Part shown: positions 3,162 to 40,089 of the stretch, piece by piece
How the letters are laid out: each line of letters opens with the position of its first letter
How positions within the stretch are numbered: the stretch's first letter is position 1
DNA from: Bacteroidetes bacterium GWF2_33_16
GTDB lineage: Bacteria; Bacteroidota; Bacteroidia; Bacteroidales; UBA12077
Assembly: GCA_001768565.1 (NCBI GenBank)
Contig: MEOE01000010.1
Coordinates: 1 to 64,000 of the forward strand
Length of the DNA stretch: 64,000 nucleotides
Direction: 5' to 3'
The notes under the pieces: model-generated
Told to the model about the DNA's origin: nothing
The model's database searches: none
What the model saw: only the letters and a program-made list of their open reading frames with translations
Position numbers and translations under genes: made by a program

Positions 3162-3172
3162 CAGCCACAATT

Positions 3173-3276: not shown

Positions 3277-3319
3277 ATTTAAATATAGCCGATTGATTTA
3301 TTAAATAGTACCAAGTATC

Positions 3320-3367
3320 AATTCATTTGAATTAAATAATCCAATAATTTGAATAATTGAATGAATT
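3320..3367. repeat. Inverted repeat upstream of the 3396 gene
   Basis: The arms aattcatttgaatt (3320-3333) and aattgaatgaatt (3355-3367) are near-perfect inverted copies. Between them ATAATTTG (3344-3351) resembles a -7 box for the gene starting at 3396. It may be an operator or simply AT-rich symmetry. Confidence 0.35.
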
Positions 3368-3395
3368 CTAATAACTTTAGTATAAAATTACCGAA

Positions 3396-4064: not shown

Positions 4065-4065
4065 A

Positions 4066-4090
4066 AAAACCGGAATAATTCCGGTTTTCT
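4066..4090. terminator. Bidirectional terminator between convergent genes
   Basis: The stem aaaaccggaat (4066-4076) pairs with attccggtttt (4078-4088), with A-runs and T-runs on both sides. It sits between the stop at 4064 (plus) and the stop at 4093 (minus), so it can serve both genes. Confidence 0.85.
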
Positions 4091-4092
4091 GT

Positions 4093-7000
4093 TTATACTC
4101 TAACACCAAAAATAATAATATCATCTACCTGCTCCCACTTACCTCTCCATTTGTCAATATTTGTATTAAGTAATTCGCGTTGTTCAGCCATAGGATTCTG
4201 ATGAATCTCCTGTAAGAATTCTTTGAAGTTCTTTGTTTTGAATTTTTGTCCATCTTCACCACCAAACTGATCCTGATAACCATCGGAGAAAATATAGAAT
4301 ACATCTCCTTTTTGCAGGTCTATTTCGTTATTTGTAAATGAATCTTTCTCTTTAACATAAATACCAATAGGCATGCGGTCAGCTTTAAATTCCATAAGCT
4401 CATTATTTCGGAACATGTACATTGGATTATATGCACCGGCATACTGTAATTTCATATTTTCAAGATCAACAATGCACAGAGCTATATCCATACCATCTTT
4501 TGCTTCTCCTTCTTTACCTGTTTGCGAAAGTGTTCTTTTAACATCGGCACGTAAATGAGTTAGTATATCGCTTGCATGCTTAACTTCGTGCTTATTAACA
4601 ATTTCGTTTATAAAAGACACTCCCAACATACTCATAAATGCACCAGGAACACCATGTCCGGTACAATCGGCTGCAATAAGTACAAGCAAATTATCTTTTT
4701 TAGTAAACCAATAAAAATCGCCACTAACGATATCTCGCGGGCGAAATAATATAAAATGTTCTGGCAGCACTTCCTGAGCATACTCTTTCGAAGGAAGAAC
4801 AGCTGTTTGAATACGTTTAGCATATTCAATACTATCGGTAATGCTTTTATTTTTCTCGGCAATTTCGTCGCGTTGCAATAATATTTCATCTTTCTGCTTA
4901 ACAACCTCTTCAGTTCGTTCTTTAACAATTTGTTCTAGACGAATTTTTTCGAGTCGCAACTTTCGAGTATATAATTTAACTGTAATTACGATAACACCAA
5001 TAGCCATTAAAAAATATAATAGAACAGCCCAAACAGTTCTATACCATGGTGGTAAAATAGAAAATTGATACTCAGCTATTTCGCTCTCAATACCATAAAT
5101 ATTTTGAGCTTTTATTTTAAAAATATACGAACCTTCGTTAAGGTTTGTATATTCTTTGTAGGTTTTAATATCCCAATTCGACCAATCATCTTCAAAACCT
5201 TCTAGTTTATAACTATATTTCAATTCTTCGGTTGGAAAATATGGTGAAGAATAATAAAATGTGATATTGTTGTGTTTAAAGTCCTGAACACTCTTTAAAT
5301 AATCCGGTTGCCTAACAGATACAATTAAGCTGCTTGTGTCAGCATAGTTTGTGCCCCAGAATAAAACTGAGTCGACAGAAATATTTACTTTTCGTATTAA
5401 GCTAGTATAAGCATAATTATTATCTACTTTCTTGTTTGGATTATAATATATAGCCTCTGTTGATGAAGAGAACCATGCTCCACCATCTGATTCAGGTGTA
5501 ATATTTTGAAAACCAAATTTTTTGATTCTTTTGAAAGGAAGATCTATAATTGTTATCTGATCATTATTTCTAATTATTTTTTCAATATACTCCAGGTTAT
5601 TATCATTACTATATTTATTAGCCTGTTTTGACAAGATCCAAAAAATGGAATCGTTTTCCATACGTAATCTACTAATAAAATCGTTTCTATTATAGAGAAT
5701 TTCACCAAATCCTTTATATTTCATAATACTATCTGTATTCTGGTCGTAGTAATAGATTCCTTCTCTTGTAGTAATAATAATTTCGTTGTTAATATTAAAT
5801 AAATTATTATTGTTAAGTGCAGGTAAACCATCATTTAAATCATAATTTCGAATGTTATTTTTTTCTACTTTTAGTATACCATTCAATGCTGTTCCAAGCC
5901 ACAAATTACCATCATTATCTTCGACGATTGATTCAATAGTGTATTTAAAACTACCAACTTTACCCTTATCTTGCCATATGCCATTATTATATTCAAGATA
6001 TGCTAACCCACCCAAATGCCCCACATATAATTTATTCTTATCAATTTTTGATTGGTATGTAATTCTGGTATCATATTCTTCATTCGAGATTCTAATAATT
6101 TTTGAACTATTTAACAACTCAAATACACCATTTTGATTAGCAATTATTAATTTTTTTTGATTGTTTGAGGTAGTAAAGTGATTAAAATTCCAAACAATTA
6201 ATTCGATTGGGGCACGATTGAATTTTGGTAAATTATTCTTATCGAAAACTAAATAGTAAAGTCCATTGGTTGTAGCAATATACAAGGTATTATTGAAGTT
6301 GATAATATCGTTTATTATTCCATCAATTCCATGACTTGGATTAAAGTTTGTAAAAGGCGAGTTTATTTCTACCCTCGAAATACCATTATTTAATGCTAAC
6401 CACAACACTCCATCCTTACCTTGATGTGATGAAATAACTGTATTGTCTTTCCATCCCACGTTTTTATCGAGGTGATATAGAATTTCTCCCTGGTTATTTG
6501 CAACAATAAAGCCATTCTGGATTGTAGAAAACCCAAAAGTACCATCGTTTAATTTTATTCCTTGATATAACATTGAATTACTCAATGTTTCAGATAAATT
6601 TTTAAAGTTTTTATTGATATTAGCTACTTTTTCTGACTTTCCTGTTTCTGTGTCATATAAAAAACATCCCTGTCCAATTGTTCCGATTAAGATTTCTGCA
6701 TCTGAAAAGGGTAACATTACAAAAATATCCATATCTTTATAATAACTCCCTCCAATAGCATCAACAACTGAATCATTTTCAATAACTTTCAGACCCCTAT
6801 AATCACCCCAGTATAATTTGCTATTGATGAAAAAACTAATAAATCCACCTTCCACATTATTATACTGTTTAATAAGTTTCTTATTATTAAACACATATAT
6901 ATACTTGCTCGAACAAAAATAAACATCATTATTTTGTATGTAGACTTTCCAAACATCCTTAAAAGATTCTTTGATACTGGAAGTAAGTGAATGATATTTT

Positions 7001-7434: not shown

Positions 7435-10400
7435 TTATTTGTTAACGAACACTTTTCTCATATGAATGTTGCCATCAATAGTTAATTTAACAACAAACAC
7501 TCCAGACGATTCATTTACAGGAACCACGTTTTTTGTGAAGTTTTCCATTGGTAAATTTACAACCGGCAAACCAATAACGTTATAAATTTCAACTTGTCCA
7601 TCTTTGAATCGAATATTCTCAGGATTATTAACTTCGATAACAATTGCACCCTGAATTGAATAAATTGCCACCTGGTATTGTTTAATATCATCGATACCGG
7701 TTGATGGATTGTATGTAATACTAAACTCATTTGCAGTAGTATTTGAATTACCAACTAAATCAGTAACTGTGCCAGCTGCAATACTAATTGTAACTATACC
7801 CTGATTTGTGGCTGTCACAGAGGCTGTAAATACTATACTGTCGGATGTTGTTAGGCTGGTTAGTGTACCGTTGGCTATTACTATATCTGAATTATCAAAT
7901 CCTTTTATCTGTTCAGTAAATGTTACTACTACAGTGAAATTAGCATTGGTAGTTGTGCTTCCGGCAGATGATGTTATAACTAATGAAGGAGCTGTTCCAT
8001 CATATAAAATTGAGAACTGAGTAGCAGCAGCATTTCCATTTCCGGCCAAATCTTCTGCAATATCAGCAGCAATATTCAAGGTAACTTCACCGCTATTAGT
8101 TGGTGTAAGTATTGCTGAGTATACATTTTCAATGTTCGATAATCCTGAAAGAACTCCATTTACAACAATAATATCGTCAATTTCAAAGCCAGTGATACTT
8201 TCGCTAAATGTTATAGTTATTGGTATTGAAATACTATTTGTAGGACTAGATTGAGTTGACTCAATAATTATTGTTGGATTAGTAATGTCATAATAAACTG
8301 TAAACTGAGTTGCCTGTATATTCCCATTTCCTACAGCATCGATTGCTACATTTGCTTGAACATCAACTGCAACAATTCCCTCGCCTGATGGTATAATTGT
8401 TAAAGTATAAACATTATCTGTATTTGCAAAATCAGCAATTGTTCCATTAGTAACCGATATATCATCAGATACAAATCCTGTAACAGGTTCGCTAAATGTT
8501 ATGGTTATTGGTATAGAATTACTGTTAGTATTACCTGAAATAGTTGAAGTAATTTCTACTGTTGGGGCTGTTCCATCATAGGTTAAAGATATTTCATTTG
8601 ATGCAGCGTTTCCATTTCCGGCCAAATCAAATACAGCATTTGCAGCTATATTTACAGTTACTACACCATCTGTTGGCAATAGTGTTGCTGTATAAGTATT
8701 TCCATATCCAAGCAGATTAGTAATAGTACCATTAACAACCGTAAAATCAATTTCATTAATAGCTGCTATATTTTCGCTAAATGTTATTGTCAGTGGTATT
8801 GAACTATTATTTGTTGGACTGCTTACCGTGGTTTCAATTACAACTGTAGGAATGGTACCATCATAAGTAATTGAATATTGAGTTGCAGCGTAATTTGGAT
8901 TTCCAAACAAGTCGTTGGCTACATTTGCAGGGACATCAATTGTAATTGGCCCATCAATTGTTGGAATTAGTATTATCGAGTAAATATTACCCACATTAGT
9001 CATAACGCCTGAAATAGTAGCATTTGTAATAACTATCTCGGTAGATTCAAACCCAGTAATAGGTTCACTAAATGTTATATTTATTGGAATATTTGAATTA
9101 TTTGTTGGATTTGATTCTAAGGATGAAATACTAACAGACGGAGGACCATTTTCAGAAATAATTGAGAATTGAGTAGCTGCAGTATTATTATTTCCGGCAG
9201 CATCATGTGCAGCACCAGAAGCAACATCTACAGTACAAGTACCATCTCCATCGGGCACAAGTGTAAATGAATATATTTTGCCATTTTGTGTCAGATTTTG
9301 AACACTACCATTTGCAACTACTATATCTATTATATCAAATCCAGAAACAAGTTCACTAAATGTAACTGTAATAGGTATTGCCAGATTTGTTGTTGGACTT
9401 GATTCGGTAGATTCAATTACCACTGTTGGGTTTACATTGTCGTATACAACCATGAACTCAGTTGCTGCAACATTATCATTCCCGGCTATGTCCTTAGTAA
9501 CCCCTGCCGAAATATTAACTGTTACCTCGCCAGTATCGGCTGGAGTAACATTTAATGTAAATACAATACTATCGTTGGTAGTATTCATTGCTAAAGAACT
9601 ACCATTTCCAAAAGTAACATCGGATAACGCGAAATTGGTAACACGCTCGCTAAATGTTATTGTAACAGGAATTGGAGATACATTTGTATAACCTACTATA
9701 ACTGATGTTATTGTAACTGTTGGAGCAGTACCATCATATGTAATCTCAAATGTATTAGAAGCGGTATTACCATTAGAATAAACATTTATTACTTTATTTT
9801 CAGGAATTGAAACTGTTACAAGTCCATCTTGTGAAGGAGCTAATGTTACAGTATATGTAGAACCTGAACCCACCAAATAATCAACAGATCCGCCTACTAC
9901 AAAAAAATCTGCTATTTCCAATCCGGTTACTGATTCAGTGAAAACAATGTCCAGAATTATTGATGTTAAACTTGTTGGACTTGTTGTAATAGATGAAATG
10001 GTAACATCTGGTCTAGGTCCGGCATATACAATACTAAATTGAGTAGCTGTAGTATTTCCATTACCAGCAATGTCGGTCAAAACACCAGCACTAATATCAA
10101 CGGTTATTGTAGCAACCGAAGTTGCAGTAATATCAGCAGTAAATGAAATACTATCAGTTGTTGTTAAATTAGATACATTTCCATTAGCTACAGTTATATC
10201 TCCAAAAACAAAGTTCTTAACTTTTTCACTAAATGTAATCGCAATTTCAAATATATCTTCATAGGTTGGATCAGGTTCATTGCTAGAAATAATTACTGTT
10301 GGAGCAGTAATATCGTATACAATACTAAATGTATTCGATACGAGATTTAAATTACCTACCTGATCGATAGCAACACCAGCTGCAACACTCAAGTAAACAG

Positions 10401-13400
10401 CACCATTGCTTGATGGTGATAGTGTTAAAGTATAAACATTTCCGCTACCAGCAAAGCCAGAAACAGAACCATTTGTTACACTAATATCTCCCTCAATAAA
10501 TCCAGTGACATTTTCGCTAAACGTAATTGTAATAGGTATAGCAGAACTATTGGTTGGACTACTTTGAGTTGATGTAATTTCAACCAATGGTGGAGTATTA
10601 TCAAATGTAACCTGAATTGTATCAGATCGATTATTTGGATTACCAATTGAAGAACTTGTTACTTTATTTTCGGGTACATAGGCAGTTACTAAACCAGAAG
10701 CTGTGGGTACAAGTGATGCAGTAAATACAATATAATCAGTAGTTTGCAAATTAGTTACTGTACCATTTGTTGTTACAAAGTCATTGGTTTCAAATCCATT
10801 CACTGACTCACTAAATGTAATTGTAATAGGTAGCGGAGTTGTATTTGTTGGATTTGCCCCTGAGTATAACAGATCTACAGTAGTATTTACACCTGCATAT
10901 TCGATGGTAAACTGGGTTGCAGCAATATTTGGATTTCCTGCAACATCATATGCTGCAGCAGCATTTATATCTACTTTTACTGTACCAACAGTTACTGGAT
11001 AAATATCAGATGTAAATGTTTTGTTATCTGATGTCTGTAAGTTTGAAGCAGTACCGTTTGTAACAATTAAATCACTAAGATCAAAATTTGTTACTTCTTC
11101 GATAAATGTAATTGTAACTTCGAATGGAGAAACAAGTACTGGACCGGGTGCAGAGGTTATTGTTACGGTTGGACTTATGTTATCATGTTTTATAACCAAA
11201 TTTGTTGGAGCCAGATTATTGTTTCCAGCCAAATCTTTAGCTACTCCAGCAATGCATCCAATTGTTACAGAAGTATTAGCATTAGCAGTTATTGCGACTT
11301 CAAATAGTATACTATCAGTAGTTGTACAACTAACTTTTACACCATTTGTAACATCAATATCACCAATTGCAAATCCAGAGACTCTTTCGCTGAATTGGAA
11401 TTCAATTTCAAGAGCTGTATTATTTGTTGGATTTGGTGTAACAGAAGTTATTGCTAGTGTTGGAGCTGTACCATCATATGTTAAAGATAACTCATCAGCT
11501 GCAGTATTTGTATTTCCTGCAGCATCAGAAGCAACACCAGCGGCAACATTAACAGTAACCTCTCCATCGGTAGTTGGAGTTATGAGTACAGTATATGTTG
11601 TGCCAGATCCAGCAAAAACAGATTTAGTACCATGCACAACAGTTATTTCACTTTCGTCAAATCCTGTAACACTCTCGCTAAAGGTTATGGTGGCAGTAAA
11701 TGCACTATTTAACGGGCTTGTTTTATTAGATGTAATTGTAACTGTTGGCTGAATATTATCATAGGTTCGTATAATTATATTAGATGCAGAATTTAGATTA
11801 CCAGCCATATCCTGACAAACACCTGCAGTAACCTGAACACTCACTGATCCATTTAAAACAGGTGTAATTTGTACAGTAAAATTACTATCATTAACTGTCG
11901 TAAAGTTACCTTTTGTGCCATTATCAGCAGAAATATCATTAATATCGAAATTCTGAATCTTTTCGCTAAAGGAGATATTAACTGTAAATGCTCCGTTAAC
12001 GTTTGCAGGTGCTGTGGTTGAAAGCGTAACTGTCGGAGCCACAATATCGGCAGTTGTAAACGACCATGCTGAAGGGCCAGAAAGACCTGCATAATTATTA
12101 TTTGAAGCATCGCGTAAAGCTCCAGCAGCAATTTCGACATAGTATTTGGTTTTACTGCTGAAATCAATACCAGGGTTTATTGTGATTGTGTTTGTACTAC
12201 CTCCCGTGACCTTTACTACATCATCAATCGCAATAGTTTCATGTGTAGTTCCTAAAATATTCTTTATAACAACATCTCCTGTATTAACATTTACGATTTC
12301 GTTAAATGTAATTTTAAGATCTGAAGTAACAGCTACACCTGTTGAATCATTTTTAGGAATAAAACTTGTAGCAACAGGTGGTGCTATATCTTTGGTTGTA
12401 AAGTTCCATGTTGCAGGCGAAGATATGCCTGCAAATGGATTGGAACCATCGGTAAAAGCACCGGCATCAATTAATACATAATAACCAGTTTCGCCTACTA
12501 GATTTGAATCTAAATCAATGGTAATAATTGCTGTACCTTCTCCAGTAACATTGGTTGATGTAACAGCCATGTTTTCAACTGTAGAGTTATCTGAAGATTT
12601 TTTTACAACAATGTTACCTGTACCTTTATTAACATTTTCGCTGAATGTAATTACCAAATTAGCATTTAACTCAATACCAATTGCATTATCAGCTGGAGTT
12701 GTTGACAATATATAAGGAGAATTAGCATCAATAGATGTAAAATTCCAAGTTGAATTACCTGTAATACCGGCAAAATTATTACCTGCATTATCTTTAAAAG
12801 CAGTGTTTGCAATTTCAACATAATAACCTTTGTTACTAGCAAAATCATTTGGGTTGATTGTTATTGTTGATGTCCCTGAACCAGTAACAGATCCAACAGC
12901 TATTGTTTGGAATACTGAATTATCTGAAGTGTGTTTTATTACAATATTTTCAGTACCTACTTTAACCACTTCATTAAATATAATTTCGAGATTTGAAGTA
13001 AGTGGAACACCTGTAGCACCATTAGACGGAGTAAATGCAGAAACTGTAGGTGCAGCATTATCATATGTTATCGAATACTGAGTTGCCGCATTATTTGTAT
13101 TTCCGGCATTATCAGATGCAATACCTGCAGCTACATTAACGGTTACTAAACCAGCAGCTGTTGGCGTAATGCTTGAAGTCCAGGAACGATTTGCTACCAC
13201 AGGTGTAATGGTGCCTGCAGTTCCATTTCCAACTGTTATATCACCTGTAGCAAAGCCAGAAATATCCTCATTAAATGTAATAGTAACTGTAAATGGGCTA
13301 TTTTTTGTCGGATCAGTTTCAGTTGAACTTATGGTAACATTTGGTTTTGTACCATCATAAGTCCTTGACAATTGTAAAGCTGCAGTATTTGTATTACCAG

Positions 13401-15177
13401 CCAAATCAGTAATTTTATCTACAGCAAAATCTACTGTTACGGTTCCATCTATTGTTGGAGTAATACTAACGTCCCAATTTGTAGCATCAAATTTTGTTAA
13501 ACCCGATGGACTGCCATTGCCAACTGTTATGTCATCAAGAGTTAAACTACTTTCATTAATATTCTCGGAGAATGAAATTCTAACTGTGAATGGTTTATCT
13601 TTTGTTGGATTTGAAGCAGTTGAAGATAATGATACTGTAGGTTGCTGATCATCAAAAGTTGTTGAAATAGTATTAGACAAAGTATTTGCATTTGTTGCCG
13701 CATCTTGAGCTACACCAGCCAATACCTTAACTGTAACTGCACCATCCGTTGTAGGTGTTATTGTTGCAGAATAGGTAGTTCCTGAACCACTAAAACCAGA
13801 AACTGAAGCATTTGTAACGGTTATATCGTCCGAAATAAATCCGGAAACACTTTCGGTAAATGTAAAAGTAACTGAAAATGCAGCTTTGGTATACGCAGGA
13901 ACTTCTGATGTAAGTAATACATCTGGTGAAGTTCCATCGTATGTTCTTGAATAAGGAGTTGCAGCAGTATTCGTATTTCCAGCCAGGTCGGTACATACTC
14001 CTGCATTAATATTTATGGTAACTAGTCCGTCTGCTGCTGGTGTAGCATTAAATGTAAAGACAATGCTATCGGTTGTACTAACAGCAGATAATGAACAATT
14101 CGTTTTGGTAATATCGGTTGAGGCAAATTTTGAAACCCGTTCGCTGAATGTAATAGTAACCGGAATAACTGCATTTGTGGGATTAGATGCAGTGGATTCA
14201 ATTAAAACTGATGGGCGAGTACCATCAATGCCAGTAAAATCGCCTAGACTTGTTAAGCCTGATTTATATGCATAATTTGATGAATAAGTGACAGGCGAAA
14301 ATAAGGTTCGTGTTGATTCTAAATACTTGGCATTATATATACTCGCTTCTGTTCCCTCAATATCAGAATCAAGATAATAATAATAAAAAATTAGATTTGG
14401 AGTTGTTATTCCTGATGAAGAAACCGAAAAATAACGGGTTAAATATTCAGATAAGCTGCCATTAAGTGGATATTTATCATCAGTCACTTTAATACTAATA
14501 TATGCAGGAGGAGTAACGGTAGTTCCAGTACTTAAAGAAATAACTGCACGAGAATATTCGGGAGTACCAGTAACCTCTCCAATTGGAAATGTAAATGACC
14601 CCGTTGTACTAAATTCTTTCCGCATTGTTCCTGTACCATTGGTAACAATCATACGTGTTGTACCGAAGCTACCTGTAACAGAACCTGATGGCCCAATGGT
14701 TAGATTATTATTATAAAGATTTATATTTCCATTTGTTAATGCCAACACACCATTAATATAGGAACTACTTGACAGTGATAGTCCAGAAGTATTATTCAAA
14801 GTTAATTTCTCGAAATTGGTAAATTGGCTACCTCCAATTGATTGCAAGGTTGTACCATTAAATAAAACTTCACCATCGGCATCAACATTTATTAAAACAT
14901 TATTTGTGGCATTATTTGTCCAGCTACCCTGGAGTTTTATTTTACCATCGAGATCGATTCTGCCATCAGTTAAACTATATGTTTTGTTTGTAAAATTTGC
15001 ACTGGTAGCATCACCTGTAATATTTATAATAGCACCTGTATTAACAAGTATTCGGGCTCCATTATTGGTTACGCCTTTTTGTGCGAAAACAAAAGGCATA
15101 TGCAAAAGACCACAAATAAATAATAGCGTGATTATTTTTGCACTTTTTGATCTAAAATTTGGCTGGATAAAGATCAT
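7435..15177 (-). CDS. Giant secreted protein with 22 Ig-like repeats and T9SS sorting domain
   Basis: This 2580-residue protein has a signal peptide ending HMPFVFAQ. An N-terminal region of about 320 residues is rich in beta-solenoid-like sequence ('LTNGNINLYNNNLTIGPSGSVTG' style). Then come 22 repeats of about 95-100 residues. Nineteen follow the pattern 'PTVxITSxxxxPTNxxxIPITITFSExV ... GVVTVNIAAGVAxDxAGNxNxAA' (bacterial Ig-like). Three consecutive ones (repeats 5-7) are SbsA_Ig-like ('NGATGVPLTSNLEIIFNEVV', 'GYYVEIANTAFKDNAGN'). The last 75 or so residues (YQVAIYSIQGAIVIEV ... GVFVVKLTIDGNIHMRKVFVNK) are a type A T9SS C-terminal sorting domain. It should be exported through T9SS and attached to the cell surface or released. 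An adhesion or matrix role is inferred from the Ig-repeat architecture. Confidence 0.92.
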   Translation of the reverse strand: MIFIQPNFRSKSAKIITLLFICGLLHMPFVFAQKGVTNNGARILVNTGAIINITGDATSANFTNKTYSLTDGRIDLDGKIKLQGSWTNNATNNVLINVDADGEVLFNGTTLQSIGGSQFTNFEKLTLNNTSGLSLSSSSYINGVLALTNGNINLYNNNLTIGPSGSVTGSFGTTRMIVTNGTGTMRKEFSTTGSFTFPIGEVTGTPEYSRAVISLSTGTTVTPPAYISIKVTDDKYPLNGSLSEYLTRYFSVSSSGITTPNLIFYYYYLDSDIEGTEASIYNAKYLESTRTLFSPVTYSSNYAYKSGLTSLGDFTGIDGTRPSVLIESTASNPTNAVIPVTITFSERVSKFASTDITKTNCSLSAVSTTDSIVFTFNATPAADGLVTININAGVCTDLAGNTNTAATPYSRTYDGTSPDVLLTSEVPAYTKAAFSVTFTFTESVSGFISDDITVTNASVSGFSGSGTTYSATITPTTDGAVTVKVLAGVAQDAATNANTLSNTISTTFDDQQPTVSLSSTASNPTKDKPFTVRISFSENINESSLTLDDITVGNGSPSGLTKFDATNWDVSITPTIDGTVTVDFAVDKITDLAGNTNTAALQLSRTYDGTKPNVTISSTETDPTKNSPFTVTITFNEDISGFATGDITVGNGTAGTITPVVANRSWTSSITPTAAGLVTVNVAAGIASDNAGNTNNAATQYSITYDNAAPTVSAFTPSNGATGVPLTSNLEIIFNEVVKVGTENIVIKHTSDNSVFQTIAVGSVTGSGTSTITINPNDFASNKGYYVEIANTAFKDNAGNNFAGITGNSTWNFTSIDANSPYILSTTPADNAIGIELNANLVITFSENVNKGTGNIVVKKSSDNSTVENMAVTSTNVTGEGTAIITIDLDSNLVGETGYYVLIDAGAFTDGSNPFAGISSPATWNFTTKDIAPPVATSFIPKNDSTGVAVTSDLKITFNEIVNVNTGDVVIKNILGTTHETIAIDDVVKVTGGSTNTITINPGIDFSSKTKYYVEIAAGALRDASNNNYAGLSGPSAWSFTTADIVAPTVTLSTTAPANVNGAFTVNISFSEKIQNFDINDISADNGTKGNFTTVNDSNFTVQITPVLNGSVSVQVTAGVCQDMAGNLNSASNIIIRTYDNIQPTVTITSNKTSPLNSAFTATITFSESVTGFDESEITVVHGTKSVFAGSGTTYTVLITPTTDGEVTVNVAAGVASDAAGNTNTAADELSLTYDGTAPTLAITSVTPNPTNNTALEIEFQFSERVSGFAIGDIDVTNGVKVSCTTTDSILFEVAITANANTSVTIGCIAGVAKDLAGNNNLAPTNLVIKHDNISPTVTITSAPGPVLVSPFEVTITFIEEVTNFDLSDLIVTNGTASNLQTSDNKTFTSDIYPVTVGTVKVDINAAAAYDVAGNPNIAATQFTIEYAGVNTTVDLLYSGANPTNTTPLPITITFSESVNGFETNDFVTTNGTVTNLQTTDYIVFTASLVPTASGLVTAYVPENKVTSSSIGNPNNRSDTIQVTFDNTPPLVEITSTQSSPTNSSAIPITITFSENVTGFIEGDISVTNGSVSGFAGSGNVYTLTLSPSSNGAVYLSVAAGVAIDQVGNLNLVSNTFSIVYDITAPTVIISSNEPDPTYEDIFEIAITFSEKVKNFVFGDITVANGNVSNLTTTDSISFTADITATSVATITVDISAGVLTDIAGNGNTTATQFSIVYAGPRPDVTISSITTSPTSLTSIILDIVFTESVTGLEIADFFVVGGSVDYLVGSGSTYTVTLAPSQDGLVTVSIPENKVINVYSNGNTASNTFEITYDGTAPTVTITSVIVGYTNVSPIPVTITFSERVTNFALSDVTFGNGSSLAMNTTNDSIVFTLNVTPADTGEVTVNISAGVTKDIAGNDNVAATEFMVVYDNVNPTVVIESTESSPTTNLAIPITVTFSELVSGFDIIDIVVANGSVQNLTQNGKIYSFTLVPDGDGTCTVDVASGAAHDAAGNNNTAATQFSIISENGPPSVSISSLESNPTNNSNIPINITFSEPITGFESTEIVITNATISGVMTNVGNIYSIILIPTIDGPITIDVPANVANDLFGNPNYAATQYSITYDGTIPTVVIETTVSSPTNNSSIPLTITFSENIAAINEIDFTVVNGTITNLLGYGNTYTATLLPTDGVVTVNIAANAVFDLAGNGNAASNEISLTYDGTAPTVEITSTISGNTNSNSIPITITFSEPVTGFVSDDISVTNGTIADFANTDNVYTLTIIPSGEGIVAVDVQANVAIDAVGNGNIQATQFTVYYDITNPTIIIESTQSSPTNSISIPITITFSESITGFEIDDIIVVNGVLSGLSNIENVYSAILTPTNSGEVTLNIAADIAEDLAGNGNAAATQFSILYDGTAPSLVITSSAGSTTTNANFTVVVTFTEQIKGFDNSDIVIANGTLTSLTTSDSIVFTASVTATNQGIVTISIAAGTVTDLVGNSNTTANEFSITYNPSTGIDDIKQYQVAIYSIQGAIVIEVNNPENIRFKDGQVEIYNVIGLPVVNLPMENFTKNVVPVNESSGVFVVKLTIDGNIHMRKVFVNK

Positions 15178-20197: not shown

Positions 20198-22894
20198 TTA
20201 TTTCTTTAGTAAATTTTCAATTTCAATAAGTCTTGCTTTAAGCAAATCTATTTCGGATTGTTGAGTTTGAATTATTTTTTGTTGATCTTGAATGGCTTTA
20301 AGCATAGGTATTGTTAATTTTTCATACATAACACCCTCTGGTTGGTTATCCTTATATGCTACCAATAATTTATTAACCAAATCGACTTCTTCAGCTATTA
20401 GGCCATATTGAATATCTGATGGTGTTGTATTTTTATAATTATAAATCACAGGCCTTAAATTATACAACCAATCATAATTATTTAGACTTAAAACATTTTC
20501 TTTATATCTAATTGAGGAGGCATTGACACCACCAACTTCACCCGAGGAAGTAACATACAAATATCTTGGAGAGGTTACAGAATGGTTAAAAGGTTCATTA
20601 AATGTTAATGCACCAGTAACTCTGGCTGTACCAGTAACATCAAGTTTATTTGATGGTGAAGAATTACCAATACCTACATTTGAATTAAAAAAATTATAGG
20701 ATGCACCATAACCCCAGCTAAAGTATGTTCCGTTATACCAAAGCGCTTCAGTACCGTTAACTTTAAGTGCGACACCAGTAATACCAATATTAACAGATCC
20801 ATTAGTACCAGGATATAATCCAACATTTCCTTCAGAAATACTATTAACAAGAACAATATCATTGCTAGATGCGCTAGCATATCCAAAATATCCTTTTCTA
20901 CCAGCACTATACCCATCAGGATAGAATTGCATATAAAAATGGTCTGTGCCCTCTAAATTAAGTATACCTTGATTTCCTTTAATGTGAAGTGGAGCATAGG
21001 GTGTAGCTGTATTTATTCCCGTATTACCATTTTTTAGAACAGTCAGTGCATTACTTGTTACAGGGCCCATAGCGCTACCACCATTTCCATTACCAATTAC
21101 AAACAATGGATCAGCAGCTACCCAAGAAGTTTTACTATATGAAGTTGAGGTAATATTTTGCTGTCCAATAACAAAAGAAGCATAGGCATCTGCCTGAACT
21201 CCGTGACCATGCGCTATTGAAAACATTCCTGTTGCCTTTGTTTTCATATTATAAATTGGACTAAAACTATAATATTGCGATCCATGTCCATCAGAGAATG
21301 AGTAATCGCCAATGGCATAGGATCCTCTCATTGCTAATGATCCGATACCTTGACTTGTAGCATAACCTAATGATATTGACCAATCCCCAGATGCAGAACC
21401 CGGACCGAGAGCAATCGAATATAAACCGGTACTTGATGCAAAATACCCTAATGCTAAAGAGCCATCTTTACTTGAGGTAGTTTTATAGCCAATAGCTGCT
21501 GATGCATAATTACTCGCAGATGATTGGTACCCCAATGCGAGAGAATAAGTTCCTACTGCATTATTACCTAATCCGAATGAAAAAGAACCTTTTCCACTGC
21601 TATGGGATCCTTGTCCAACCGCAAAGGAGTATTCTCCTTCAGCATATGTAAAATCAGTTGCTGTACCAGAAGAATCAACTCCTGCACTACCTAAAGCATA
21701 GCTACCATAACCCTTTGCAAGGGCTCCACGACCGAATGCATAAGAATTTATATTTTTTGCCTGAGCACTATCACCAAATGCAAATGAATTGTTATTATTT
21801 GCAAGAGCCTTTCTTCCAATCGCTGTTGAATAGTCGCCTCGTGCAATTGTGCTGTATCCAAAAGCCTGTGAATAATCACCATAGGCTCTGGATTCAAATC
21901 CCAATGCTGATGAATTTAATCCTACACTATCGGGATATTGAACTATAACTCTACCAGCCATAAATGCTTCTTTATTTGGATACCATGCAATACGTGGCTC
22001 AGATGGATAAATTGTACTCGGAATAGTATTTCCTGAAACATTAAAGTAATCGCCACTTCCTTTAGTTGGTGTTCGTCCACTTACAGCAAAACCTCCTACT
22101 GTTCCTTTTGTTGTTGTTGTATCATTAATGTATATTCGAGTACTATCTGTCGATGACAGAAAGTAATTATGTAAACTTGTTTTTGTTGGCGTTCGTCCAC
22201 TTACGGCAAAACCTCCCACTGTACCTTTTGTAAAACCTTCGTTAACATACACACGAGTGCTATCAGGTGTAACTCGCAAATAATCAAACTCCCCCAACTT
22301 GGTAGGAGTGCGCCCACTAACTGCAAATCCTCCAACAGTTCCTTTTACTGCTGCTGTGTCGTTTATATAAATTCGGGTGCTATCGGGTGTAACTCTGAAA
22401 TACTGTACTTCCGCTCCTGTTTTCGTTGGTGTTCTGCCACTAACTGCAAAACCACCTACTGTACCTTTGGATCCTTCATCAACTGTTACCTTAACACCAT
22501 CATTATACACAGCAAAGACAGTATCGCCGTCATTATTGACTACAGCAAAAAGTGCTTGCCCTGCTCCAACCCCGGCATTTATCTGCGAAATAGCTTTCCA
22601 TGAGAAACCATTATAATACATGAAGCTATTTAGTGATGTATCGAAAACCAGCAAACCAGTAGCAGGAGAATTTATTAACTTACGCTGTGTAGAATCCACT
22701 CGTGGAATTAAAATACCCTTTGTTGTTGAGTTTACATCGAGCATTGCTGAAGCTGCTGCAGTATAACCATCGTCATCGGTTACAGCTACATTCTGAGAGA
22801 ATAGGTTGTTTGAAAATCCTATTGATAGAAGGATTAGACTGATAAATAGCTTGTTAATAATCTTAAAACAAACTATCCAATAATTTGATTTCAT
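20198..22894 (-). CDS. Fibre paralogue 3: type A N-domain, YadA-like head, S74-like chaperone with altered dyad
   Basis: This 898-residue protein has a signal peptide (cut ...NNLFSQ) and the type A domain (DDDGYTAAASAMLDVNS). Four GGFAVSGRTPTK units lie at about 140-277, all KGTVGG. A junction typical of this head class follows (DYFNVSG ... RIAWYPNKEAFMAGRV ... PDSVGLNS). The head (about 300-600) is YadA-like, with 14-residue repeats of the form 'AxAxGxYSxAxG' ('DYSTAIGRKALANNNNSFAFG'). The C-terminal chaperone contains SSIRYKENVLSL (about 796), where the usual Asp after the cleavage Ser is Ser, then YGLIAEEVDLVNKLLV and a coiled coil. The second and third stalk units are almost identical to those of paralogue 4, which has the other head type. 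Confidence 0.92.
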   Translation of the reverse strand: MKSNYWIVCFKIINKLFISLILLSIGFSNNLFSQNVAVTDDDGYTAAASAMLDVNSTTKGILIPRVDSTQRKLINSPATGLLVFDTSLNSFMYYNGFSWKAISQINAGVGAGQALFAVVNNDGDTVFAVYNDGVKVTVDEGSKGTVGGFAVSGRTPTKTGAEVQYFRVTPDSTRIYINDTAAVKGTVGGFAVSGRTPTKLGEFDYLRVTPDSTRVYVNEGFTKGTVGGFAVSGRTPTKTSLHNYFLSSTDSTRIYINDTTTTKGTVGGFAVSGRTPTKGSGDYFNVSGNTIPSTIYPSEPRIAWYPNKEAFMAGRVIVQYPDSVGLNSSALGFESRAYGDYSQAFGYSTIARGDYSTAIGRKALANNNNSFAFGDSAQAKNINSYAFGRGALAKGYGSYALGSAGVDSSGTATDFTYAEGEYSFAVGQGSHSSGKGSFSFGLGNNAVGTYSLALGYQSSASNYASAAIGYKTTSSKDGSLALGYFASSTGLYSIALGPGSASGDWSISLGYATSQGIGSLAMRGSYAIGDYSFSDGHGSQYYSFSPIYNMKTKATGMFSIAHGHGVQADAYASFVIGQQNITSTSYSKTSWVAADPLFVIGNGNGGSAMGPVTSNALTVLKNGNTGINTATPYAPLHIKGNQGILNLEGTDHFYMQFYPDGYSAGRKGYFGYASASSNDIVLVNSISEGNVGLYPGTNGSVNIGITGVALKVNGTEALWYNGTYFSWGYGASYNFFNSNVGIGNSSPSNKLDVTGTARVTGALTFNEPFNHSVTSPRYLYVTSSGEVGGVNASSIRYKENVLSLNNYDWLYNLRPVIYNYKNTTPSDIQYGLIAEEVDLVNKLLVAYKDNQPEGVMYEKLTIPMLKAIQDQQKIIQTQQSEIDLLKARLIEIENLLKK

Positions 22895-28956: not shown

Positions 28957-31900
28957 CTATTTTTCCAATTTATCGAGTCGCTTATTTATATCTAATAATT
29001 GATTTTTAAGTTCCATATTTTCGGATCTTAAGGATTTTATTTCTGTTTGCTGTTCCTGAATCGCTTTTGTTAAGACAGGAACTAATGCCGAATAGTTAAT
29101 TCCTAAAGTCTGTTTTTCGTCATCGCCAACATCCACAATATCTGGTAAAATTAGTTGAACTTCCTGTGCAATTAGACCAAGTCTCTTATTTTTATTTGTT
29201 TTGTCTTTCCAATCGAAACTAACTGGTCTGAGCATTAATATATGCTTTAAACCATACTCAATATCAATAATGTTGTCTTTTAATCTTATATCGGAGGTTT
29301 GAATAGCTCCATCAATTGCATATACTACCTGCCATCTCTTTGATGAAGAACCTAATTGTGAAGTATCATCAGCAAATGGGTATAATGATCCAAAAACAGT
29401 TAAATCCCCGGTATTTCCTATCACTAACCGATTATTAAACCAAGAAGTTCCATCATTATAAGCAAACTCAAAATTATTAAGCTTATTATGAAAAATATCC
29501 CATCTTTTTATTACCGTTTCGACTGACCCAAAACTTATTCTTGAAAAACTATATGAATCACCTTTTCCTTTAAGATATATGTTTGCAGAACCTATGGTAT
29601 CAGCAATGGATAATTCAACATTCTGAGGGTGTGTATTAATTCCTATCATGCCATTAAACCTTAGTAGATTATTTTCAAAATTACCCCATATTAATGCTTT
29701 AGATGAATCAACCTCAGTATTTTCAATATATAATTTGTTAGAACCAATTTCATTAAATCCTGATTTATTTCCAATAAAAACATTTCCAGATCCTGTTGAG
29801 TTTCGTCCTGCATAATTACCCAGAATAACATTTTGTGTTCCTAAGATATAAGTATCGGCGGCATAATTACCAATAATTAAATTATCATAACCATAATACA
29901 TATTACTACCAGCGTTAAATCCAATTAGCACATTGTTATATCCAGTTGTGTTAAAATAACCACTATACGCACCTAAAAATACATTACCATATCCTTCAGT
30001 ATTATAATGTCCACTTTCATGCCCAATAATTGTACTATTACTACCTGTAATGTTTTCTGCACCGGTTCTATTACCTAAATAAACATTAGCTAATCCGTCA
30101 GTATTTTTTTCGCCACTATTATTCCCAATAAATATATTGGAGGAACTAGTTTGGCTGGATGCTCCTGCATAAGCTCCAAAAAATATATTATCAGATCCTT
30201 CAGTATTACTCCAACCACAATATGAACCAATAAAAATATTATGATTGCCAATTGTATTATTCCACCCTGTGTTACTCCCCATAAATACATTACGAAACCC
30301 TTCCGTATTATAATAACCACACCAGTTACCTACAAAAACATTCTGATATCCTGATGTATTAAAATATCCTGATGTTGCACCAATAATTACATTGGCCCTA
30401 CCTGATGTGTTCGCATATCCAACTCTATCACCTATAAAAACGTTATATCTTCCATCATAATTTGAATAACCTGCCGAGTCTCCAATAAAAATGTTTTTAT
30501 AACCTACTGTATTTGAATATCCAGAATTATTTCCAAAGAATACATTACTATTTCCTGATTCGCTATTATATCCTGATTTATATCCTAAGAATATATTTTG
30601 ACTTCCTGAAATATTAGCAAAGCCTGATTTATTCCCGATAAATATATTATTATCAGCAGTTGTGTTTGTATATCCAGAACTATCACCAAAGAAGATATTG
30701 TTGGAACCAAATTCATTTTTATATCCTGCAAACGATCCCAAGAAAATATTTTTACTCCCTGAAATATTATTCCAACCCGACTGATTTCCAAGAAATACAT
30801 TTTCTGATCCAACTGTATTGCTTTTTCCACACCAATTACCAACAAAAACATTGCTGCTACCTGTTGTGTTTGAAATACCCGTTGTTGCACCAATAGCAAC
30901 ATTATTCATCCCTTCAGTATTAGATCGACCCGATCTTTCGCCAATAAATACATTATAAAGTCCGTTAATATTACTATATCCACTTTCGTTTCCAATAAAC
31001 ACGTTTCTATAACCTTCTGTATTACTCCATCCGGATTGATTACCAATAAATACATTTCGACTTCCGGTAGTATTATAATAACCACACCAATTACCAACAA
31101 AAACATTGTATAGTCCTGTAGTATTATAATATCCGGATGTAGATCCAATTAAAACATTTCCCAAACCTGTTGTATTTGATTTTCCCGTTTTTTGTCCTAC
31201 AAAAACATTATATCTACCATTAATGTTACCATAACCACTTTCATTTCCAATAAATACATTTTGATAACCTATTGTATTGGATGTTCCAGAATTGTTACCC
31301 ATAAATATATTATAATATCCATTTTCGTTATAATAACCTGAGGAATCTCCAATAAAAATATTGCTATTTCCAACTGAGTTTATATAACCCGAATAATAAC
31401 CTAAAAATGTATTACGATTTCCAGTTGTATTAGAATATCCTGCATTAAACCCCATAAAAGAATTATACAATCCTTCTGTATTTGATTTTCCAGCTTCGTG
31501 TCCAATAAAATAGTTACTTTTAGTAAGGTCCATTAGCTTAGAAATTTCATTTTTAGTTGGAGTTCTGCCACTTACAGCAAATCCACCAACTTTGCCTTTT
31601 GAATCTAACGAATCACTAATATAAATTCTGGTACTATCTTTATTTACAGTAAGGTAGTCTTTTATTAATCCTTTTGTTGGTGTACGACCACTCACTGCAA
31701 AACCACCTACTTTACCTTTTGCTCCTAACGAATCATTAACATAAATACGAGTGCTGTCTGGCGTAACTCTGAAATATTCAACAGTTTCGCCCGCTTTTGC
31801 TGGAGTTCGTCCACTAACGGCAAATCCACCAACTTTTCCTTTCGCATCGGGATCCACAAAAACCTTTACTCCATCAGGATAAACTGCAAATACTGTATCA

Positions 31901-32556
31901 TTGTTGGCATTAATAACCTGGAATAATGCACCTGTAGCAGATGATTTGACTTCTAATTGGCTGTTTGGATCATTTGTTCCTATACCAACATTTCCAGCAT
32001 TGTAATATAGTTTATTGCCATTTGCTGCCCATTTGCTGCTACCGTAAGGAAAAACAACCTGATTGCCATTGCTTATTTTTAAGGTATCACCTGTTAAGGT
32101 TAAGTTCTGAATTTCATTAGTTGGATTAGCATCTGCGTCATCCTTATTCTCAACATTTTGAGCATATAATGCATAAGGAACAGAAATAAGCTGCACTGTT
32201 CCTAAATCTGTAAATGTTCCGCCAGCAGGATTTGCAATTTCGGTTTTTAAATATATTTGTTGCGACCAGTTTATATTCGTAAAAACTCCTGTAATAATCG
32301 TTCCATTGCCAATTTTTGCTGTATATTGTCCATAATTATTAGTTGATACTGAATGATTCTCTGAGTAAATAACAGTTCCTGTTGAACTCCCTTGCAGTAG
32401 TGAAATTTTTACATTAATAGATGTATTTTTCACCAAATCACCTGATGAATTTCTTAATACTCCCTGATAACTAAATTTCTCAGGAACTTGGCCTATTGAC
32501 TCTAAACATATACAGACAATCACTGTCATCATAATAATAACGATTATTCTTTTCAT
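28957..32556 (-). CDS. Fibre paralogue 6: type B N-domain, very long 17-residue head, S74 chaperone
   Basis: This 1199-residue protein is the largest of the family. The signal peptide is cut ...LESIGQ. The type B domain (VPEKFSYQGVLRNSSGDLVKN ... VPYALYAQNVENKDDADANP) is followed by a GIGTNDPNSQLEV link. Three stalk units lie at about 237-334; the first reads GGFAVSGRTPAK, the only Thr-to-Ala exception in the family. The head (about 345-945) has about 35 repeats of exactly or nearly 17 residues. A 5-repeat (85-residue) superunit is marked by NVFVGNWCG at repeats 9, 14 and 24. The S74 chaperone starts at TSDIRLKDNI (about 1088), with LGLIAQEVQLILPDIV and a coiled coil. The Ser-Asp dyad is intact. 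Confidence 0.93.
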   Translation of the reverse strand: MKRIIVIIMMTVIVCICLESIGQVPEKFSYQGVLRNSSGDLVKNTSINVKISLLQGSSTGTVIYSENHSVSTNNYGQYTAKIGNGTIITGVFTNINWSQQIYLKTEIANPAGGTFTDLGTVQLISVPYALYAQNVENKDDADANPTNEIQNLTLTGDTLKISNGNQVVFPYGSSKWAANGNKLYYNAGNVGIGTNDPNSQLEVKSSATGALFQVINANNDTVFAVYPDGVKVFVDPDAKGKVGGFAVSGRTPAKAGETVEYFRVTPDSTRIYVNDSLGAKGKVGGFAVSGRTPTKGLIKDYLTVNKDSTRIYISDSLDSKGKVGGFAVSGRTPTKNEISKLMDLTKSNYFIGHEAGKSNTEGLYNSFMGFNAGYSNTTGNRNTFLGYYSGYINSVGNSNIFIGDSSGYYNENGYYNIFMGNNSGTSNTIGYQNVFIGNESGYGNINGRYNVFVGQKTGKSNTTGLGNVLIGSTSGYYNTTGLYNVFVGNWCGYYNTTGSRNVFIGNQSGWSNTEGYRNVFIGNESGYSNINGLYNVFIGERSGRSNTEGMNNVAIGATTGISNTTGSSNVFVGNWCGKSNTVGSENVFLGNQSGWNNISGSKNIFLGSFAGYKNEFGSNNIFFGDSSGYTNTTADNNIFIGNKSGFANISGSQNIFLGYKSGYNSESGNSNVFFGNNSGYSNTVGYKNIFIGDSAGYSNYDGRYNVFIGDRVGYANTSGRANVIIGATSGYFNTSGYQNVFVGNWCGYYNTEGFRNVFMGSNTGWNNTIGNHNIFIGSYCGWSNTEGSDNIFFGAYAGASSQTSSSNIFIGNNSGEKNTDGLANVYLGNRTGAENITGSNSTIIGHESGHYNTEGYGNVFLGAYSGYFNTTGYNNVLIGFNAGSNMYYGYDNLIIGNYAADTYILGTQNVILGNYAGRNSTGSGNVFIGNKSGFNEIGSNKLYIENTEVDSSKALIWGNFENNLLRFNGMIGINTHPQNVELSIADTIGSANIYLKGKGDSYSFSRISFGSVETVIKRWDIFHNKLNNFEFAYNDGTSWFNNRLVIGNTGDLTVFGSLYPFADDTSQLGSSSKRWQVVYAIDGAIQTSDIRLKDNIIDIEYGLKHILMLRPVSFDWKDKTNKNKRLGLIAQEVQLILPDIVDVGDDEKQTLGINYSALVPVLTKAIQEQQTEIKSLRSENMELKNQLLDINKRLDKLEK

Positions 32557-37149: not shown

Positions 37150-40089
37150 TTATTTTTTAAGATTTTCAAGAAAAGACTTTATTTCGTTAATTTGCTTTCT
37201 GAGCAAATTATTTTCTTCCCTTATCAGTTCAATTTCTGATTGCTGTTTGCTTATTATATCCTGGTTTTCCTTCTTTAATTCAATAATCTGAAGTTGAAGG
37301 TTCTCTACTGTTTCAAGGGTTTCGAATTGCATTCGGGTTAGGTTTACCCCATTTTTCTCATCTTTTGCAGAAGTTATCCAAGGTAGATGTCCATTGGTTT
37401 TGATAAATTCTTCAACTTTTATGGGTTCTAAATAGCTGTTGTATTCTGGTTTAAATACATAGTCAGGTTTAGTATATTTTGTTATACTAGGGCTTGCACC
37501 ATAAAAAATATCTCCAGTAATTCTTGCATCACCCTCAACATGTAGTTTTTTATCGGGAGCCTTTGTTCCGATACCGATTCTCCCATCTTTTAATACTGTT
37601 AATGCGTTTGACCTAGCGTTGTCGGATAAACCATTTCCAATAATGAAAAGGGGATCAGCCGAAACCCATGCAGTAGATGAGTTAGAGGTTGTGTCGTTAA
37701 ACATACCAACTACCAAACTAGCGTATGAGTTTGCTTTTACTTGAGATCCAATTACAGTAGAAAAAGACCCGCTTGCTATAGAAGAAAATCCCATAGCTGT
37801 AGCATTTAATCCGCTGGCAGTTGTAGCATTTCCTATGGTTGTTGAAAAAATTCCACTTGCATATGTATAATTTCCCAGCGCTAATGAGGACGCTCCGTCA
37901 GCAGTACTAAAAGATCCGATGGCTATGGAATGATTTCCGTTTGCCCAAAGTTTTCTCCCTATAGTAGTTGAAAAATCTCCAATCGCGGTTGTTTCAAATC
38001 CCAAAGCTGTAGCACATAATCCAGTGGCCCTTGTCGCGTTTCCCAAGGTTGTAGAAAATACTCCTGAAGCTACAGTATAGTTTCCTAATGCAAATGAACT
38101 GGGACCGCTGGCAGTATTTTCCAATCCAAAAGCAAAAGAATTATGTGCACTGGCGGTTGTTCCTTTTCCAATAGCTATTGAATTATTACCTTGTGCTTTA
38201 TTACCCCGACCTATTGCAATGGAATAGTCTTCTGCGGCTATATTGGCAGAACCAAAAGCGAAAGAAAGTTTCCCAGTAGCCTGAGAGCTCATTCCGAAAG
38301 CGTATGAATAATCTCCACTTGCAACTGTTGGACCTGTTATTGAACCGTATTCATCGATACCGAATGAACCCATCGCAAAACTATTTTTTCCCGATGCATT
38401 CGCATGAGAACCTAAGGCGTATGAATTTTCTCCATTGGAAATAGCTGAATCGCCAAATGCAAACGAATTCAAACCCTGAGTCTGTGCATAATTACCAAAT
38501 GCAAATGAATTGCTTGAATTGGCTATAGCATTATTCCCTATTGCCGTTGAATTCAATCCTAACGATTGTGCTTCATATCCCATTGCCTGTGAATAATTAC
38601 CCATAGCAATAGTTCTATAACCCAATGATGTAGAATTGGTTCCAACACTATCGGCTGAACCAATATGTACTTCACCAGCCAGAAATGCAGCTTTCACAGG
38701 ATACCATAATATTCGTGCTTCACTTTCAATTGATTCCAATTTCTTATTTCCCGAAATATTAAAATAATCATTTATATCGCCCTGTTTTGTAGGTGTTCGG
38801 CCACTTACTGCAAAACCTCCTACTTTTCCTTTGGATGATATAGAATCACTAATATATATTCGGGTACTATCTTTGTTAACCGTAAAATAGTCTTTTGTAC
38901 CACCCTTGGTTGGTGTTCGGCCACTTACTGCAAAACCACCTACTTTACCCTTTGCCCCTATGGAATCATTGACATAAATACGAGTACTATCGGGTGTAAC
39001 CCTAAAATATTCAACTTTGCCACCTAATTTTGTTGGAGTACGACCACTCACTGCAAATCCGCCAACAGTTCCTTTTGAGTCCGAATCTACAAACACTTTA
39101 ACTCCATCTGGATAAACTGCAAAAACGGTATCATTATTGGCATTAATTACCTGGAATAAAGCACCTGTCGTACTGGTTGATTTAACTTCAAGCTTACTTG
39201 TTGGATCAGATGATCCAATTCCAATGTTTCCTGTATTATAAAATAATTTATTTCCATTAACTGACCAGCGACTACTATCATATGGAAATACGACCTGATT
39301 TCCATTGCTTATCTTAAGAGTATCTCCTGTTAATATAAGGTTTTGCAATTCGTTTGCCGAACTTATATCTAAATCAATAGGAAGTTTTACAAAACCTCCA
39401 TTGGACAAATAAATAGAATCATTAGATATTGATATTGCCTGAAGTTCATTTGTTGGATCTGCATCAGCATCTGTATAACCATCCTGAATTGTAACCAGAT
39501 TAACCATATTTCCTCCTGTAATACTCAATTCTGTACCCAATAAATTTAGGTTTTGATTATCGGTATTGGTTCCGGCATAGGGAGCTAAATCAATGGCTGT
39601 AGCGCCTGAATTGTTAGTTATTTTTAATGTATTGCCTGTTAAATTCAGGTCTTGTATCTCATTAGAAGGATCTGCATCAGCATCATCTTTATTTTCTACA
39701 TTTTTTGCATACAAAGCATACGGAACAGACAAAAGCTGCACCGTTCCCATATCTACAAATGTGCCACCAGCAGGATTTGCAACTTCGGTTTTTATGAACA
39801 TTAATTGCGACCAGTCAATTGTTGTATATGAACCAGAAATTAATGTTCCGGCACCTACAAATACATTAAACTGACCATAATTGTTCGTACTCACAGAATG
39901 ATTTTCTGAGTATTGAATTGTACCTGAAGAACTACCTTGCAGTAAGTATATTTTAACTGTAATGGAGGCATTTTTTACTAAATCTCCTGAAGAATTCCTT
40001 AGTAATCCCTGATAATTAAATTTGTCAGGTACCTGAGAAAAAGAAGTTATACTAATGAATAAAAACAATCCGATTATAAATTTTTTCAT
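37150..40089 (-). CDS. Fibre paralogue 9: type B N-domain, YadA-like head, coiled-coil tail
   Basis: This 979-residue protein has a signal peptide (cut ...ITSFSQ), the type B domain, and four Asp-rich 'DADADPxNE(I/L)Q' units (about 140-260). Three GGFAVSGRTPTK units follow (about 335-435; after KG: T, K, K). The YadA junction is DYFNISG ... RILWYPVKAAFLAGEV. The head of 14-residue repeats is long (about 470-800), with 'ASGVFSTTLGNATxATGLCATALGF'-type units repeated. The tail from about 870 is not S74. It reads KPDYVFKPEYNSYLEPIKVEEF..NGHLPW and ends in a long coiled coil, a common C-terminus of Bacteroidota head-repeat proteins. The AIG-rich head and D-rich neck suggest a trimeric stalk-and-head fibre. 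Confidence 0.92.
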   Translation of the reverse strand: MKKFIIGLFLFISITSFSQVPDKFNYQGLLRNSSGDLVKNASITVKIYLLQGSSSGTIQYSENHSVSTNNYGQFNVFVGAGTLISGSYTTIDWSQLMFIKTEVANPAGGTFVDMGTVQLLSVPYALYAKNVENKDDADADPSNEIQDLNLTGNTLKITNNSGATAIDLAPYAGTNTDNQNLNLLGTELSITGGNMVNLVTIQDGYTDADADPTNELQAISISNDSIYLSNGGFVKLPIDLDISSANELQNLILTGDTLKISNGNQVVFPYDSSRWSVNGNKLFYNTGNIGIGSSDPTSKLEVKSTSTTGALFQVINANNDTVFAVYPDGVKVFVDSDSKGTVGGFAVSGRTPTKLGGKVEYFRVTPDSTRIYVNDSIGAKGKVGGFAVSGRTPTKGGTKDYFTVNKDSTRIYISDSISSKGKVGGFAVSGRTPTKQGDINDYFNISGNKKLESIESEARILWYPVKAAFLAGEVHIGSADSVGTNSTSLGYRTIAMGNYSQAMGYEAQSLGLNSTAIGNNAIANSSNSFAFGNYAQTQGLNSFAFGDSAISNGENSYALGSHANASGKNSFAMGSFGIDEYGSITGPTVASGDYSYAFGMSSQATGKLSFAFGSANIAAEDYSIAIGRGNKAQGNNSIAIGKGTTASAHNSFAFGLENTASGPSSFALGNYTVASGVFSTTLGNATRATGLCATALGFETTAIGDFSTTIGRKLWANGNHSIAIGSFSTADGASSLALGNYTYASGIFSTTIGNATTASGLNATAMGFSSIASGSFSTVIGSQVKANSYASLVVGMFNDTTSNSSTAWVSADPLFIIGNGLSDNARSNALTVLKDGRIGIGTKAPDKKLHVEGDARITGDIFYGASPSITKYTKPDYVFKPEYNSYLEPIKVEEFIKTNGHLPWITSAKDEKNGVNLTRMQFETLETVENLQLQIIELKKENQDIISKQQSEIELIREENNLLRKQINEIKSFLENLKK

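Follow-up and report, generated by a model that had tools for sequence, protein, structure and literature searches.

An ordered five-unit block occurs three times in the head of a probable Bacteroidales surface fibre

Here we report that a Bacteroidales bacterium encodes a probable surface fibre whose head, judged from its sequence, is built of 17-residue units among which one ordered block of five units is present three times. The gene occupies positions 28957-32556 of the window, a stretch of 64,000 nucleotides at the start of contig MEOE01000010.1 of Bacteroidetes bacterium GWF2_33_16 (assembly GCA_001768565.1). We consider it likely that the product is a MAT-like trimeric surface fibre whose head grew longer through two tandem duplications. 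Starting from an ancestral head of about 22-23 layers, it would first have gained a 10-unit copy (510 bp; units 4-10 and 16-18 giving 19-28) and then a 5-unit copy (255 bp; units 6-10 giving 11-15), and about three layers would have been lost near the far end of the head. Block copying is a real and fairly ordinary route of lengthening for such adhesins, with a precedent in the published account of the BpaC head (PMC9543794). The head can be read as a record of one way in which a repeat fibre may become longer, because the copying steps can be ordered and tested against collinear relatives that carry one block.

The repeated block

The head consists of 34 consecutive units, each of exactly 17 residues, and is closed by one register-shifted unit; an earlier note on this DNA, made from the letters alone, had counted about 35. 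The same note had called this the largest head, and among the eight open reading frames (ORFs) of the window that qualify by 17-residue units it does have the most. Units of the type NVFVGNWCG stand where the note had placed them, with NWCG in units 9, 14 and 24, and SYCG is found in unit 26. These are the only four Cys-Gly sites in the open frame, and the remaining two of its six cysteines lie within the signal-peptide-like start. DNA encoding V-G-N-W-C-G was found at exactly three places in the whole genome, all of them in units 9, 14 and 24.

When the order of the units was shuffled (33 units), the single-lag p values at lags of 5, 10 and 15 units were 0.031, 0.042 and 0.031 for amino acids and 0.043, 0.13 and 0.015 for DNA. 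No single lag was significant for either once corrected over 20 lags, and the three lags combined gave p = 0.0007 (amino acids) and p = 0.0015 (DNA). Of 12 candidate periods, period 5 alone stood above the shuffled order (z = 3.95; familywise p = 0.002 over 500 shuffles). The three pairs of blocks share 58/85, 53/85 and 51/85 amino acids and 175, 175 and 158 of 255 nucleotides, against a background over all unit pairs of 45% (amino acids) and 56% (nucleotides) on average. The 255-bp DNA periodicity that the earlier note had offered as a check is seen in the combined unit-order lags. It is not seen as an array, since Tandem Repeats Finder reported none inside the gene, of 255 bp or any other length, and the plain signal is weak: DNA identity at lag 255 was 0.567 vs 0.524-0.571 at other multiples of 51. 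Plain amino acid identity had small peaks at lags of 85, 170 and 255 residues (0.474, 0.460 and 0.464, vs 0.425-0.467 at other multiples).

The same period test was applied to 49 of 58 heads of the family, those with fewer than 12 units being left out, and a significant best period was obtained in 16: period 1 in 14 of them, period 5 in the present head and period 8 in L035:3071 (ORFs outside the window are named by locus, strand and 0-based offset). The last is a 748-aa open frame (3072-5315 of its locus, plus strand; z = 4.0, familywise p = 0.004) in the genome of one of the single-copy relatives described below. An older layer of single-unit copying, which had been supposed beneath the blocks, is not visible here beyond the shared unit itself; z at period 1 was 0.9, vs the 14 of 49 heads in which period 1 is best. 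The head sets do not include the other genes of this genome on contig C14 (L045) and loci L052-L057, which were drawn on for the tail blastp search and a later look for NWCG. L024 was taken as a duplicate of G010:C174 and kept out of the head counts, and is contained in the pooled letter frequencies and in an alignment of 26 head fragments.

Two proteins from two other genomes of the same genus, among genomes compared at one per species, carry the NWCG block once each and served as outside templates: L029:2373 (793-aa open frame, 23 units) and L035:5373 (872-aa open frame, 22 units). Unit-order alignment with the present head covered units 1-10 for the former (z = 9.0) and units 1 and 3-10 for the latter (z = 7.8). 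With either single-copy block as the template, the best three of 31 positions were 21, 6 and 11, scoring 32.7, 31.1 and 24.9 (next 10.4) with one template and 27.4, 24.8 and 22.9 (next 8.1) with the other. Not one of 5000 shuffles reached the third-best score, whether the NWCG unit was included or omitted; when it was omitted the same three positions still led, with a smaller drop after them. Taken singly, position 21 gave p = 0.0034 and 0.0004 with the two templates (0.023 and 0.010 without the NWCG unit), and position 11 was weaker (0.046 and 0.010; 0.28 and 0.029 without it). Elsewhere NWCG was found once, in other company, in L027:4478, and in none of the six ORFs with 17-residue units among the C14 genes and loci L052-L057. 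As the relatives carry it once, this pattern suggests that NWCG is a layer variant independent of copying.

Order and age of the copies

When the head was parsed by the Viterbi method with the two single-copy heads as reference, the strictest jump cost gave 1-9, 5, 6-10, 11-13, 4-10, 11-13 and 17-23 in reference units; the lone 5 is unit 10 of the present head, which is near reference units 5 and 10 alike (z 2.9 and 2.6). When units 11-15 were dropped, a single lag-10 segment remained, in which ten units are directly followed by their ten copies (4-13 matching 14-23 in the shortened head; p = 0.0010), and when units 6-10 were dropped instead a lag-10 segment was again obtained (p = 0.0007). 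Because removal of either block leaves a clear lag-10 segment, the best explanation of the third copy (units 21-25) is tandem copying of ten units. The earlier proposal that the head grew by 5-unit blocks holds for the 255-bp step and the ordered neighbours, and its third copy is better described as part of this longer one. Within units 1-31, Gly is absent at position 15 only in units 17 and 27, exactly ten apart. In both single-copy relatives it is missing in the first unit after the block, and units 17 and 27 are the second after theirs; because the Gly-less unit comes second, the extra unit (16, 26) may predate the 10-unit copy.

Several observations weigh against this history. Tests free of the relatives are modest: with the first scoring the best diagonal segments had p = 0.08 (amino acids) and p = 0.19 (DNA), so that none was significant, and with a second scoring over units 1-31 the p values were 0.011 (lag 5), 0.018 (lag 15) and 0.076 (lag 10). 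The unit range, the second scoring and the block-removal test were chosen after results had been seen, the last once the parse was known. Where the 10-unit copy ends on the right is uncertain, because units 16-18 and 26-28 alone match at p = 0.086 and the parse of units 26-32 shifts with looser jump costs. The opening order is also found in L028:2536 (units 1-5, z = 9.9) and in L035:3071 (units 1-11, z = 7.4), which is without NWCG, so that a collinear opening is shared more widely in the family; plain blastp with the whole head ranks L026:1970 first and not the two collinear heads. The three copies share 51-58 of 85 residues with each other and 55-59 of 85 with the single-copy blocks, where recent copying predicts otherwise. 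Codon agreement between units 6-10 and 11-15 (30/56 shared residues) is near background, and a tree of the five blocks does not settle the age or order of the copies. As for the MAT-like nature of the fibre, none of 19 genomes has a MAT_N match above the curated cut-off.

The two single-copy blocks share 61/85 residues, and codon agreement at shared residues was 0.52 overall, vs 33/51 and 27/49 in the other two block pairs. In view of these block identities and codon agreements, the copying is old or the copies evolve fast. Perhaps the copying predates the split from the single-copy species, with later loss there.

Alternative histories

Such loss is central to the first alternative, possible though unlikely, in which the common ancestor had three blocks, two of which later disappeared from the single-copy heads. 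The block identities, as low among the copies as between them and the single-copy blocks, fit such early copying as well; in a DNA tree the copies of the present head stand on one side of a weakly supported branch only (59/73), and one loss may suffice. Against this, the same single-copy unit order is seen in two different genomes, and clean removal of units 11-15 and 19-28 would be needed at least once, where gain takes two copies.

Still less probable is that recombination with another gene or strain, one carrying a collinear head, supplied the third block, rather than tandem copying within the gene. The genes of the family are mosaic-like, and N-terminal part, head and tail often have their best matches in different genes. 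Unit 23, moreover, is nearer to unit 8 of the single-copy heads (z 7.3) than units 8 and 13 are (4.1 and 4.1). On the other hand, the two 10-unit stretches directly adjoin once units 11-15 are omitted, as tandem copying predicts, and the genome holds no remaining donor, V-G-N-W-C-G being encoded in this gene alone.

That period 5 reflects selection for a structural step, such as a twist of the shaft, and not descent, is very improbable: a three-layer motif is retained in BpaC and is tied to its core by the authors of PMC9543794, and weaker lag-5 segments occur in L038:6426 (p = 0.017) and L043:1872 (p = 0.057; both uncorrected), but among the 49 heads the present one alone has best period 5 at familywise p < 0.05, and the similarity follows the unit order of the outside templates.

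The fibre and its relatives

The product of the gene is, from the same kind of evidence, a probable surface fibre, with a signal-peptide-like start followed by an N-terminal domain, a stalk, the head, a short link and an S74 tail (Table 1). A Pfam scan of the whole protein (E ≤ 0.01) returned Peptidase_S74 alone, at the C terminus (55.6 bits, curated cut-off 22), and no YadA membrane anchor; SDIRLK in the tail fits the motif SDxxxK. A second search with the N-terminal model NF053851 gave 27.4 bits (E = 2.4e-6; cut-off 60) over positions 5-78 of 162, about half of the model, and weak MAT_N-like matches recur at 11 places in the genome. N-terminal parts with the GKVGGFAVSGRTPxK stalk were without a Pfam match above cut-off in the four proteins scanned, and a stretch of about 590 nt including the stalk is 78-80% identical to three neighbouring genes.

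Table 1. Positions of the fibre gene and its parts in the window.
Feature	Positions	Strand	Basis
Fibre gene, 1199 aa, ATG start	28957..32556	-	ORF call and family matches
N-terminal domain, weak Bdello_MAT_N (NF053851) match, 31.9 bits vs cut-off 60	32293..32511	-	profile match
Stalk, three GKVGGFAVSGRTPxK repeats	31516..31938, limits approximate	-	sequence and DNA comparison
Head, 34 full 17-aa units, aa 348-925	29782..31515	-	unit parsing
5-unit block copy 1, units 6-10, aa 433-517, NWCG in unit 9	31006..31260	-	unit parsing, template scan
5-unit block copy 2, units 11-15, aa 518-602, NWCG in unit 14; putative tandem copy of copy 1	30751..31005	-	
5-unit block copy 3, units 21-25, aa 688-772, NWCG in unit 24	30241..30495	-	
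Units 19-28, putative 10-unit (510 bp) tandem copy of 4-10 and 16-18; right edge uncertain	30088..30597	-	
C-terminal tail with Peptidase_S74 (PF13884) at aa 1088-1141	28960..29679	-	Pfam and motif

Among the closest known systems, the MAT fibres of Bdellovibrio bacteriovorus, as described in the main text of PMC10769870, likewise combine a signal peptide, an N-terminal domain, a long shaft and an S74 tail with SDxxxK, and likewise form many paralogues with differing parts. According to that text, the signal peptide in this superfamily is followed by a conserved, beta-rich N-terminal domain of about 130 aa, the S74 tail acts as a self-cleaving chaperone and protease, and tails with SDxxxK form one subgroup (13/21 in HD100) (PMC10769870). 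The present fibre differs in that its N-terminal match covers about half of the model and stays below the curated cut-off; the main text of PMC10769870 never uses the word YadA, and no 17-residue head was met in passages describing these fibres. The fibre would work like MAT fibres, as a secreted and probably trimeric structure predicted to stand on the cell surface. The N-terminal domain would probably hold it to the cell, and the S74 tail would help the trimer to fold and then cut itself off. The head is expected to be a beta-solenoid or beta-roll of 17-residue layers. A longer head would reach further from the cell, and the side-chain pattern repeated along the shaft may provide repeated binding faces.

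Short beta layers, as predicted for the present head, build the left-handed parallel beta-roll heads of BpaC and other YadA-like proteins, and the BpaC head grew by expansion of a three-layer motif, according to the account in PMC9543794. Its layers have 14 residues vs 17 here, where the blocks comprise 5 and 10 layers, and its copies are described there as almost identical, unlike the block copies of the present head (60-68% identical). Unlike YadA-like heads, the present head is not matched by PF05658 and no YadA anchor was found. PF05658 was without a match in the fibre protein (E ≤ 0.01) and in the 26 head fragments (E ≤ 1). Two neighbouring fibre genes, at 20198-22894 and 37150-40089 (minus strand), do match it.

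Trimeric autotransporter adhesins (type Vc) carry a C-terminal YadA membrane anchor. An assignment of the fibre to this type was considered and set aside, because no such anchor was found and the PF05658 head model was unmatched.

The present protein also resembles S74-tailed phage tail fibres and tailspikes (for example PHROG 4636, 6002 and 23837), to which both head and S74 tail match by sequence. It is unlike them in that its gene is chromosomal and one of a series of similar genes that begin with a signal-peptide-like stretch. The head repeat (29731-31515) matches phage virion and tail PHROGs and 36 phage records, among them Pelagibacter, Prochlorococcus, Synechococcus and Bacillus phages and a virus assigned to Methanosarcinales; identity was below 60% in all 36. 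No convincing Pfam match to the repeat was found, nor a relative in the PDB by sequence, where the two hits returned, at E 0.22 and 0.9, resemble chance matches. The 17-residue repeat, without a convincing match in Pfam or among the sequences of solved structures, is yet present in cellular fibres and phage tail proteins alike.

A single-chain model of units 5-15 had a predicted local distance difference test (pLDDT) score of 84.5 and short strands along its whole length. Most of its structural matches, among those listed, were to parallel beta-helices, tailspikes and lyases being examples, and Z reached 14.2 (root-mean-square deviation 2.5, 176 residues). Foldseek gave no match at E ≤ 0.001 for this model, and no YadA-type head was among the best 50 fold matches listed, which excludes nothing.

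The cysteines of NWCG had been suggested to form disulphides between the chains of the trimer, which would lock it. All four cysteines beyond the signal-peptide-like start do fall at position 8 of their units. In 1157 units of 58 heads, however, position 8 is Ala, Ser or Thr in 96% (Ala 0.487, Ser 0.375, Thr 0.10) and Cys in 21 (0.018), and 12 of the 15 heads with Cys at this position have a single one. Three equivalent cysteines in a threefold layer could not all pair. If the rise is that of solved beta-rolls (4.8 Å per layer in BpaC; PMC9543794), unit 14 would be about 24 Å from unit 9 and about 48 Å from unit 24, and a bond within one chain would span too far at five layers of 4.8 Å. We therefore regard such disulphides as highly improbable; most likely, to go by the residues at this position, Cys fills a small-residue site.

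Other heads and neighbouring genes

Block copying is not confined to the present head. In the segment test, which covered 48 heads of at least 12 units with low-scoring units dropped, a repeated segment at a lag of at least 3 (uncorrected p < 0.01) was found in five, with about 0.5 expected: the present head, L031:1853, L034:0, L025:0 and L041:11480. Repeated segments lie at lags of 14 units in L034:1:0, 3 in L031:1:1853 and 11 in L025:-1:0, and over all heads multi-layer segments were seen at lags of 3, 5, 11 and 14 units.

The fibre gene itself looks like a mosaic. Its tail is closest to that of L035:5373 (50%), the two being mutual best matches among the sequences compared, and its N-terminal part is closer to other proteins (60% to L033:3204); in L029:2373 the head is collinear and the tail is of another kind. 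A family search of 25 genomes placed G016 next after the gene itself for the tail. In the six best pairs of genes within the window, the N-terminal part and stalk are 75-80% identical in DNA over 590-967 nt, and heads are 65-74% identical over at most 286 nt. The N-terminal and stalk parts of neighbouring genes are far more alike than their heads or tails, as if exchanged. Tentatively, and with slightly more doubt than belief, we suggest that 17-residue heads are exchangeable cartridges of variable length in the fibre gene runs of Bacteroidales, with recombination swapping stalk, head and tip and with heads growing by duplication of multi-layer blocks. Were this so, reach and binding face would evolve apart from anchor and tip.

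The gene is flanked by others like it, all in one orientation, and more genes of this kind are present on contig C14 of the same genome. A 2580-aa ORF (7435-15177, minus strand), without a PHROG match, adjoins the fibre genes.

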